Shown: positions 23,057 through 25,489 of the stretch, one piece after another | Position numbering within the stretch: position 1 is the first letter of the stretch | How the letters are laid out: the number at the start of each line of letters is the position of its first letter | NCBI RefSeq assembly: GCF_002114285.1 | Contig: NZ_NEDJ01000014.1 | Coordinates: forward strand, 1-58,265 | Direction: 5' to 3' | DNA from: Halorubrum ezzemoulense DSM 17463 | GTDB taxonomy: Archaea; Halobacteriota; Halobacteria; Halobacteriales; Haloferacaceae | Length of the DNA: 58,265 nucleotides | Notes under the pieces: model-generated | Told to the model about the DNA's origin: nothing | Seen by the model: only the letters and a program-made list of their open reading frames with translations | Databases searched by the model: none | Made by a program: the position numbers and the translations under genes

Positions 23057-23770
23057 TCAGACGGCCCGAAACAGCGCCGCCGCCAGCAGCGCTCCCGCGA
23101 GCGCCAGCGCCGGCGCGTCGATCCGGGTGAGCGTCAGCCGCGGCAGCGTCGGGTTCCACGCGAAACAGCGGGCCGAGAGCGCCGTGGAGAGGCGGTCCGC
23201 GCGCCCCAGCGTCCGGGTCGCGCCCGCGACGGCGACGCGCTCGATCCGGTCGACGAGCGGGCGTTCGGTGCCGAGCCGGGCCGCCGACGCCTCCCTGACC
23301 GCCGTGATCTCCCGCCGGAGAACCGGGAGGAACCGGAAGACGAGCGAGACGCCGACGCCGAGGAACACGCCGGGGCGACCCGGGACGGTCCGCTGGATCG
23401 CCGCGCGCGACTCCCGGACCGTCGTGGTACGGACGTACGCCGCGCTGACGACGACGACGAGCAGCACGCGGTAGCTCGACAGCGCCGGGTAGACGGCCGC
23501 TCCCGGGTCTATCGCCGGCGGAGACAGCTCGATCGTCGCGACGAGCGGCGCGGCGACGAGGAAGGGGAGGATGACCCTGAACGAGCGGACGACGCCGGCG
23601 AGCGACAGCGACGCGAGCCGGGCGACCGCGAGCGCGAGGACGGACAGGACGGCGAGCCCGCGGGGGGTCGTGTACGCGAACGCCGCGGCGGCGAACGCGA
23701 CCTGAACGGCGATCTTCGCCCGGGGGTCGAGCCGGTGCGCGACAGTCGAGCCGGGGACGTAGCCGATCAT
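23057..23770 (-). CDS. bioN: Biotin ECF transporter T component (BioN-like)
   Basis: A 237-residue CbiQ/BioN-type transmembrane coupling protein with about five helices. The T-component signatures are visible as two Ala-Arg-Gly-like motifs in the cytoplasmic helices, SAARLGTERPL and LSTALSARCFAW. These dock the ATPase. It is the third gene after bioY and the ATPase gene, overlapping the ATPase by 4 bases, so it powers BioY-mediated uptake. Confidence 0.85.
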   Translation of the reverse strand: MIGYVPGSTVAHRLDPRAKIAVQVAFAAAAFAYTTPRGLAVLSVLALAVARLASLSLAGVVRSFRVILPFLVAAPLVATIELSPPAIDPGAAVYPALSSYRVLLVVVVSAAYVRTTTVRESRAAIQRTVPGRPGVFLGVGVSLVFRFLPVLRREITAVREASAARLGTERPLVDRIERVAVAGATRTLGRADRLSTALSARCFAWNPTLPRLTLTRIDAPALALAGALLAAALFRAV

Positions 23771-24501
23771 CGCGTGTCGGACTCGCCCTCGAGGCGCTCG
23801 CTCGCCGGGACGTGGACGTCGAGCGCGGGGAGTTCGGCGCGCGCCGCCTCGGGCGGGGCGTCCAACGCGATCGACCCGTCGGCGAGCGCGATCACCCGGT
23901 CACACCGGTCGATCAGGCCGCGCAGGTCGTGAGTGACGACGACGATCCCCGTTCCGTCGGCCGAGAGCGACGCGAGGTGAGACAGCAGCGAGCGACGGGC
24001 GGGCTCGTCGAGCCCCGAGAACGGCTCGTCGAGGACGAGGTGGTCCGGCGCCATCGCCAGCGCGCCGGCGACCGCGACACGGGCCTTCTCGCCGCCGGAG
24101 AGCGCGTCGATCCGCTCGTCGCCCCGCCCGGCGAGGTTGACCGCGTCGAGGGCGGTCGCCACGCGTCGGTCGATCTCGTCGTGGGACAGACCGAGGTTCT
24201 CGGGGCCGAACGCCACGTCGGCCGCGATCGTCGCGGCGACGAAGCTGTCCGCCGGGCGTTGGAACACCATCCCGACCGCCGTCCGCGCCGCGACGAGGTC
24301 CGCCTCGGCCGGGACGCCGTTGACCCGGACCTCTCCCTCGGTGGGCGAGAGCAGGCCGTTGAAGTGACGGACGAGCGTCGTCTTGCCGGAGCCGTTCGGG
24401 CCGGTGACGAGGAGGAACTCGCCGTCGTCGACGGAGAGCGAGACCGAGTCGAGCGCGACCGCCCCGTCGAACGCGTGCGTGAGGTCGCTGACGGCGATCA
24501 C
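23767..24501 (-). CDS. bioM: Biotin ECF transporter ATPase (BioM-like A component)
   Basis: A 244-residue CbiO/BioM family ATPase. Walker A GPNGSGKTT, Q-loop GMVFQRPADSFVAATIAADV, signature LSGGEKARVAVAGALA, Walker B HLVLDEPFSGLD and H-loop VVVTHDLRGLIDRCD are all present. The Q-loop helix region (DSFVAATIAADVAFGPENLG) is typical of ECF ATPases. It lies between bioY (6-base gap) and bioN (4-base overlap). Confidence 0.9.
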   Translation of the reverse strand: MIAVSDLTHAFDGAVALDSVSLSVDDGEFLLVTGPNGSGKTTLVRHFNGLLSPTEGEVRVNGVPAEADLVAARTAVGMVFQRPADSFVAATIAADVAFGPENLGLSHDEIDRRVATALDAVNLAGRGDERIDALSGGEKARVAVAGALAMAPDHLVLDEPFSGLDEPARRSLLSHLASLSADGTGIVVVTHDLRGLIDRCDRVIALADGSIALDAPPEAARAELPALDVHVPASERLEGESDTR

Positions 24502-24507
24502 GCCGGG

Positions 24508-25107
24508 TCAGGCAGCCGCGATCGCGTCGTTCTTGACGATGCCGACGGCGGCGGCGATCTTGACCGCCTCGACGGGGACGAAGGCGAGCGAAGAGACAAG
24601 GAACGCCTGCCACAGCGACGCGTACCACGGGTCGTACTGTATCACCGCAAAGCCGACCGTGCCGAACCCGTAGATGATCGCGGTCCCGGCGACCATCGCT
24701 CCCACGAGGACCGGCGTCGGGACCGCGTCGACCTCGGAGAGGCTCGTCCCGCGGTGGGCGACGAGCCCGATCACTCCCGCGGCGAAGGGGTACGACCAGA
24801 GGAACCCGAGCGTCGGGCTGGCGATCAGGTAGCTGATCCCCGCGGTGCCGCCGGAGAAGACCGGCGCGCCGACCGCGCCGGCGGCGAGGTACAGGACCAT
24901 CGAGAGCGACCCCCACACCGGGCCGAGCATGATCCCCGCGAGGAACACGCCGAGGACCTGGAGCGTGATCGGTACCCCTGCCGAGAGCGGGTTCGGGAAG
25001 GAGACGTACGCGAACGCCCCGACGAGCGCCGCGAACAGCGCGGCGCGAGCGAGGTTCGTCGCCGCCTCGTCGCCGACGAGATCGACGGACTCCGTGTTCG
25101 TTGCCAT
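24508..25107 (-). CDS. bioY: Biotin transporter substrate-binding protein BioY
   Basis: A 199-residue membrane S component with six helices. The BioY pattern is clear: PITLQVLGVFLAGIMLGPVWG, LYLAAGAVGAPVFSGG and SPTLGFLWSYPFAAGVIG. It binds biotin at high affinity and is energised by the adjacent BioM/BioN pair. Translation starts at 25107, and a perfect inverted repeat of BirA-box type lies 11-45 bases upstream, indicating biotin-dependent repression. Confidence 0.93.
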   Translation of the reverse strand: MATNTESVDLVGDEAATNLARAALFAALVGAFAYVSFPNPLSAGVPITLQVLGVFLAGIMLGPVWGSLSMVLYLAAGAVGAPVFSGGTAGISYLIASPTLGFLWSYPFAAGVIGLVAHRGTSLSEVDAVPTPVLVGAMVAGTAIIYGFGTVGFAVIQYDPWYASLWQAFLVSSLAFVPVEAVKIAAAVGIVKNDAIAAA

Positions 25108-25118
25108 GACTCAACGGA

Positions 25119-25152
25119 CTCGTAAACCCACTTCAACGTAGCGGTTTACGAG
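25119..25152. promoter_or_regulatory. BirA-type biotin operator upstream of bioYMN
   Basis: CTCGTAAACC (25119-25128) and GGTTTACGAG (25143-25152) are perfect 10-base inverted arms separated by 14 bases. The bacterial BirA box is TTGTAAACC, 14-16 bases, GGTTTACAA, so both core and spacing match. It lies at the bioY promoter and would block transcription when biotin is plentiful. Confidence 0.78.
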
Positions 25153-25261: not shown

Positions 25262-25489
25262 ATGCCGAAGATAAGCGTCGAGAGCCCGGCGGAGCTGCTC
25301 GCCGACCTCGACGACCACGTGGGCGACGACGAGAAGTTCGTGAACCGCAGCGACGCGGTGCGCGCGTCGATCCGGAAGACCCTCGACCTGCTCGACGAGA
25401 TCGACGCCCGCCACGACCGGCTCGACGACGACCCGGCGACGGCGGCGGGGTTGGAGGGGAGCGAGTCAACGGAGGAGACCGATGAGTAG
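25262..25489 (+). CDS. Small RHH (CopG-like) protein
   Basis: A 75-residue protein. Its N-terminal ~50 residues fit a ribbon-helix-helix: strand PKISVESP, helix 1 AELLADLDDHVGD, helix 2 NRSDAVRASIRKTLDLL. It ends in an acidic tail. Probably a DNA-binding dimer. A TATA-like AATAATAA (25219-25226) precedes it. Its stop overlaps the start of the YhhQ gene by 8 bases, so the two are translationally coupled and it may regulate the transporter operon. Confidence 0.8.
   Translation: MPKISVESPAELLADLDDHVGDDEKFVNRSDAVRASIRKTLDLLDEIDARHDRLDDDPATAAGLEGSESTEETDE

Follow-up and report, generated by a model that had tools for sequence, protein, structure and literature searches.

A predicted BirA operator at the bioYMN biotin importer operon of Halorubrum ezzemoulense

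Background

Conservation of the BirA signal across Eubacteria and Archaea was announced in 2002 by Rodionov, Mironov and Gelfand (Genome Res 12:1507, as cited in PMC3403918, PMC3199775 and PMC545781), and BirA has been proposed to be an ancestral transcription factor on the basis of such conservation (PMC3199775). The published consensus for the binding site is TTGTAAACC-[N14/15]-GGTTTACAA, and variants of the form GTCAACC/GGTTGAC are listed for Geobacter (PMC545781). The operator between bioA and bioB of E. coli, CTTGTAAACC-N16-GGTTTACAAG, is bound by a BirA dimer and controls genes for biotin synthesis from a bacterial promoter.

Operons with the gene content bioYMN are known from Corynebacterium glutamicum and from the haloarchaeon Natrialba magadii (Nmag_0886-0888). 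Passages of PMC3403918 present BioYMN as the uptake route of a biotin auxotroph, and in those passages the account of the N. magadii operon comes without a regulatory site. In a comparison of ten haloarchaea, a biotin-protein ligase and BioY were found in all but Halorhabdus utahensis (PMC3102087).

The window analyzed here is a 58,265-nucleotide stretch of the genome of Halorubrum ezzemoulense DSM 17463. A preliminary description of its sequence had proposed that an inverted repeat in front of bioYMN is a BirA operator of bacterial type.

Results and discussion

The two arms, CTCGTAAACC and GGTTTACGAG, form a perfect 10-base inverted repeat separated by the 14-base spacer CACTTCAACGTAGC (Table 1). 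The core, GTAAACC-N14-GGTTTAC, is exact and matches the published BirA consensus in both sequence and geometry, as the preliminary description had stated; the bases outside the 7-base cores are TC/GA, not TT/AA. The repeat is upstream of a biotin transport gene, 12 bases from the start codon of bioY. The reading we favor, at a probability of about 92%, is that BirA, the biotin repressor and ligase, uses the repeat as its operator and would shut the bioYMN importer off when biotin is plentiful.

Table 1. Features of the bioYMN locus, in positions of the window
Feature	Coordinates	Strand	Basis
Predicted BirA operator, CTCGTAAACC-N14-GGTTTACGAG	25119..25152	.	Sequence read directly; conservation at bioY
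Left arm, CTCGTAAACC	25119..25128		Sequence read directly
Core half-site GTAAACC	25122..25128
Operator spacer, CACTTCAACGTAGC	25129..25142
Right arm, GGTTTACGAG	25143..25152		Sequence read directly
Core half-site GGTTTAC	25143..25149
CC of the sense-strand left half-site, -37/-36 from the bioY ATG	25143..25144	-	Column profiles; putative
TATA-like TTGAA in the operator spacer, -29..-25 from the bioY ATG	25132..25136	-	Putative core promoter of a predicted leaderless transcript
bioY, biotin-specific S component of ECF transporter, 199 aa (ATG at 25107)	24508..25107	-	Pfam BioY PF02632, E 8.1e-35
bioM, ABC ATPase, 244 aa	23767..24501	-	Pfam ABC_tran, E 9.3e-28
bioN, CbiQ-type transmembrane component, 237 aa	23057..23770	-	Pfam CbiQ, E 7.4e-15
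Divergent 75-aa ORF, ribbon-helix-helix-like by eye	25262..25489	+	Without Pfam match
Divergent Vut_1 family transporter, 239 aa	25482..26201	+	Pfam Vut_1, E 3.8e-48

The palindrome by itself is weak evidence. Chance alone would produce 0.20 pairs of perfect 10-bp arms at spacing 14 per window, and across spacings of 4 to 30 there are 18 perfect 10-bp repeats. The weight is borne instead by conservation and by agreement with the BirA consensus. Exact cores are expected 3.6 × 10-5 times per window and 0.0022 times per genome (iid estimate, 68% GC). The window contains a single match at up to three mismatches, which is the exact one, and the 3.6 Mb genome has no further exact core. A second operator in the genome was rejected: sites with up to three mismatches number 31, little above the 23 of the reversed control, and the next-best site, with two mismatches (L004, contig C95), falls between unrelated ORFs. 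Close to the latter, at L004:2012-2812, is a tandem repeat coding for many GFTLELLWALG-like units.

The regulator itself is present. The preliminary description had called for a search of the genome for a birA with an N-terminal helix-turn-helix, and exactly one was found (329 aa; G000:C111:55253-56239 = L001:1255-2244). The genome carries two genes of the BPL/LplA/LipB family, this one and a lipoyl-ligase-type protein. The BirA matches the Pfam families HTH_11 (E 3.5e-11), BPL (BPL_LplA_LipB, E 5.6e-15) and BPL_C (E 5.6e-13), and thus has the architecture of the group II, or regulatory, ligases, namely an N-terminal winged helix-turn-helix, a ligase domain and a C-terminal domain. In BLASTP it aligns with E. 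coli BirA over residues 8-311 (E 2e-26, 28% identity) and is collinear with it from the helix-turn-helix onward. The alignment retains SRAA..K...LR..G in the helix-turn-helix and GY in the wing, and the ligand loop GSRGRLDREW is aligned with the GRGRRGRKW region of the E. coli protein. By these domain and full-length alignments the assignment as BirA is settled.

The same gene is widespread among haloarchaea. BirA was found in 280 of 292 haloarchaeal genomes (in one, G002, at E 9e-4 only) and bioY in 277, and the 12 genomes that have no birA also have neither bioY nor an exact box. Among the matches listed, every alignment of approximately 150 BirA rows begins at query residue 1-3, and these rows therefore include the helix-turn-helix.

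The operon behind the predicted operator is the genome's only one for biotin import. Its bioM and bioN genes overlap by 4 bases, and among named relatives Halorubrum californiense has the closest BioY (97%). Elsewhere in the genome, a single 630-aa frame holds a biotin carboxylase together with a biotin/lipoyl carrier domain. No recognizable bioB was found in the genome; the bioB model gave at best a partial match that, at E 2e-6, is far under the cut-off and was rejected. The assembly is a draft of 155 contigs (99.87% complete), so a bioB gene or a second site could have been missed. Because the biotin carboxylase and carrier are present and bioB is absent, the organism appears to be a biotin auxotroph that depends on bioYMN, as in the auxotroph described for this uptake route. 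The occurrence of a single operator is consistent with the absence of bioB.

To measure conservation of the box we used 88 haloarchaeal bioY upstream regions, selected through the BioY protein family without regard to the box. The box occurs in 83 of these regions at no more than 3 mismatches in 14 positions and in 75 at no more than 2, compared with 1 and 0 for the reversed pattern and 4 and 1 for shuffles, with the reservation that the genomes are related and the counts not independent. Nearly all of the bioY boxes have a spacing of 14, and most of their cores begin at position -42 or -43 relative to the start codon. An exact core is found in 78 of the 292 haloarchaeal genomes (the reversed control in 3), and 30 loci with an exact core comprise 25 at bioY and 4 at bioB, the remaining one being at neither gene. 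At L013 an exact core has N15 spacing; the genes near it are unrelated, and the match was attributed to chance.

Some loci depart from this pattern. Five of the 88 bioY upstream regions (L048, L049, L055, L057 and L062) are without a convincing BirA box; for some of them the start codon is perhaps wrong, and others may be regulated differently. In L053 and L158 (genus g32) the bioY box is farther upstream and resembles two direct GTAAACC repeats, not a clean palindrome.

A second family of sites is found at bioB. In bioB loci chosen by protein family (L163-L192) the core is present with 0-2 mismatches at spacing 14, and it is positioned at -19..+9 in all but L163, where the alignment starts late. 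The right half-site, GGTTTAC, falls within GTG GTT TAC, the first three codons. Conservation of the bioB box is thus in part coding constraint, from which the left half-site is free. At L016-L018, L028 and L164-L192 a clear TATA box immediately precedes the operator, and the protein N-terminus MVY is coupled to the operator. One genome, G131 (L018/L168), has BirA and bioB without bioY, and its sole exact box is at bioB. Beyond the haloarchaeal class, other archaea of the phylum carry exact cores at bioY (L193, L205-L207) and at bioB (L194), and in L205 birA is directly upstream.

Further GTAAACC/GGTTTAC pairs near bio genes, which the preliminary description had suggested looking for, therefore exist in relatives, at bioY and bioB, and in this genome the site is alone. 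Together with the helix-turn-helix of BirA, the boxes at bioY and bioB in relatives support the interpretation as a putative BirA operator. The label "bacterial-type" is too strong for a site in a haloarchaeon: the site is general in haloarchaea, extends to other archaeal classes, and belongs to a signal published for Archaea since 2002. On comparative grounds the locus is best described as part of an ordinary, conserved archaeal BirA regulon.

The repeat could instead serve a different regulator, such as the divergent 75-aa ribbon-helix-helix-like protein, acting on bioY, on the Vut_1 transporter (whose gene overlaps the 75-aa ORF by 8 bases) or on both. Small proteins of this type often regulate their neighbors, and the ORF adjoins the operator region and is divergent from bioY. 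It is kept beside bioY in Halorubrum loci only, however, whereas the box is found at bioY across haloarchaeal genera and also at bioB. The box fits the published BirA consensus, and its distance to the divergent ORF is approximately 110 bases, versus 12 to bioY. We rejected the ORF as the regulator because it is confined to Halorubrum loci, and we regard control by a factor other than BirA as highly improbable. The ORF is a Halorubrum neighbor that is dispensable for the box.

The BirA operator appears to be placed on the core promoter of bioY. The elements proposed for haloarchaeal promoters are a BRE of CGAAA and a TATA element of TTWT, and leaderless messages make up 72% of the protein-coding transcripts of Haloferax volcanii (PMC4983044). 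The profile of the bioY spacer in 60 non-redundant sites is approximately R A W R N N T T N A W, with TTNAW at -29..-25; this TATA-like element is weak in the present genome (TTGAA) and clearer as TTNAW in the alignment. Though the operator itself is symmetric, the sense orientation scored higher than the reverse in 55 of the 60 sites when each was left out. At bioB a clear CC..AA..WTTAT is found at -38..-26, just upstream of the operator. The CC of the bioY left half-site coincides with the conserved CC place of the bioB promoters (BRE region; column profiles), and the bioY TTNAW and bioB TATA fall on the same position grid. Matches to sigma-70-like elements were disregarded, since the sequence is archaeal.

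Because the two grids agree, we infer that transcription of both genes begins on the start codon or directly beside it, and that the operator overlies BRE and TATA at bioY and covers the start site at bioB, implying that one repressor would have two ways to block initiation, from the BRE and TATA elements of bioY and from the probable leaderless start of bioB. A more complete version of this idea, to which we give even odds, is that in haloarchaea one set of bases serves as both the operator and the archaeal core promoter. The half-site CC at bioY would be the CC of the BRE, and the TATA element would fill the spacer; at bioB the operator would be displaced by about 23 bases downstream, making its right half-site codons 1-3 of a leaderless message. 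The repressor would thus block assembly of the pre-initiation complex at one gene and loading or escape of the polymerase at the other.

The same geometry bears on the possibility that the repeat works as a hairpin in the leader RNA of bioY and not as a DNA operator. In favor of this is the perfect palindrome upstream of the start codon. The position of the TATA-like element within the repeat and the prevalence of leaderless transcripts in H. volcanii suggest, however, that the repeat is not transcribed. The bases of the half-sites are themselves conserved, beyond mere pairing, and a search of Rfam returned no family match. We consider an RNA element here to have a negligible chance of being correct.

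The mechanism that we propose for the BirA operator is modeled on E. coli BirA, from which its biotin logic is taken over. BirA would make biotinyl-5'-AMP and, as long as unbiotinylated carrier protein is present, would pass biotin to the carrier and stay off the DNA. Once the carrier is fully biotinylated, the BirA-biotinyl-AMP complex would dimerize, and its two winged helix-turn-helix domains would bind the GTAAACC and GGTTTAC half-sites. The bound dimer would exclude TFB and TBP, because the half-sites and spacer coincide with the BRE and TATA-like positions (-42..-15), and the probably leaderless bioYMN message would not be transcribed. Scarcity of biotin would free the promoter again. 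Binding by BirA, biotin dependence and the steric mechanism are thus all predictions, the steric step following from the geometry.

How far does this system differ from those described previously? It shares its half-sites, N14 spacing, bioY target and helix-turn-helix-bearing BirA with the BirA regulon of Bacteria and Archaea, and GTCAACC/GGTTGAC, the variant listed for Geobacter, is also frequent in haloarchaea. It is unlike that regulon in the base pair outside the core, which is C/G in haloarchaea (CGTAAACC...GGTTTACG, 82-85% of the 60 sites) and T/A in the consensus, and in the apparent fixation of the operator over archaeal BRE and TATA positions. In E. coli the arms are of the same type and the operator is likewise at a promoter, but the 7-base cores are separated by 16 bases rather than 14, and the genes controlled are not those of a transporter. 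In the literature searched, coverage of which was partial, we found no paper on an operator overlapping BRE/TATA or positioned at the bioB start, which is weak evidence of novelty. The discovery is modest, since the signal was announced for Archaea in 2002, and its main fresh detail is the predicted position of the operator on the core promoter of bioY. Across hundreds of genomes, archaea with eukaryote-like transcription machinery appear to combine a vitamin repressor of bacterial style with its operator in a fixed module. The predicted overlap of operator with BRE and TATA makes a compact, testable promoter, and the bioY promoter could serve as a biotin-repressible promoter in haloarchaeal genetics.

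A further possibility is that the operator is a relic: BirA formerly bound the repeat, and in this lineage it is now a ligase only, with bioYMN expressed constitutively. Some BirA proteins that bear a helix-turn-helix are without residues thought to be important for regulation (PMC3199775). In this genome, however, the helix-turn-helix is intact and the arms are perfect, including the outer 3 bases. The 34-bp site is 94-97% identical to those of other Halorubrum, versus 56-77% for the upstream DNA, and it has been retained despite an apparent exchange of the gene that follows it. We therefore think a relic very unlikely and prefer a working BirA operator.

The bioYMN operon (23057-25107) has a mosaic structure that is common to this genome and H. 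californiense. BioY and BioM of these two are only 64-71% identical to those of other Halorubrum, and BioN 57-63%, whereas the identities to Halalkalirubrum salinum are 81, 81 and 75% for BioY, BioM and BioN, respectively. The operator has the opposite affinity, with just 69% identity to that of Halalkalirubrum. The breakpoint is near 24990, at about codon 38 of bioY. Before this codon, DNA identity to Halorubrum is 84-98%; after it, identity is mostly 55-80% to Halorubrum and mostly 70-87% to Halalkalirubrum. The simplest reading of these values is that recombination swapped the body of the transporter, and that the native operator, promoter and N-terminus were probably retained.
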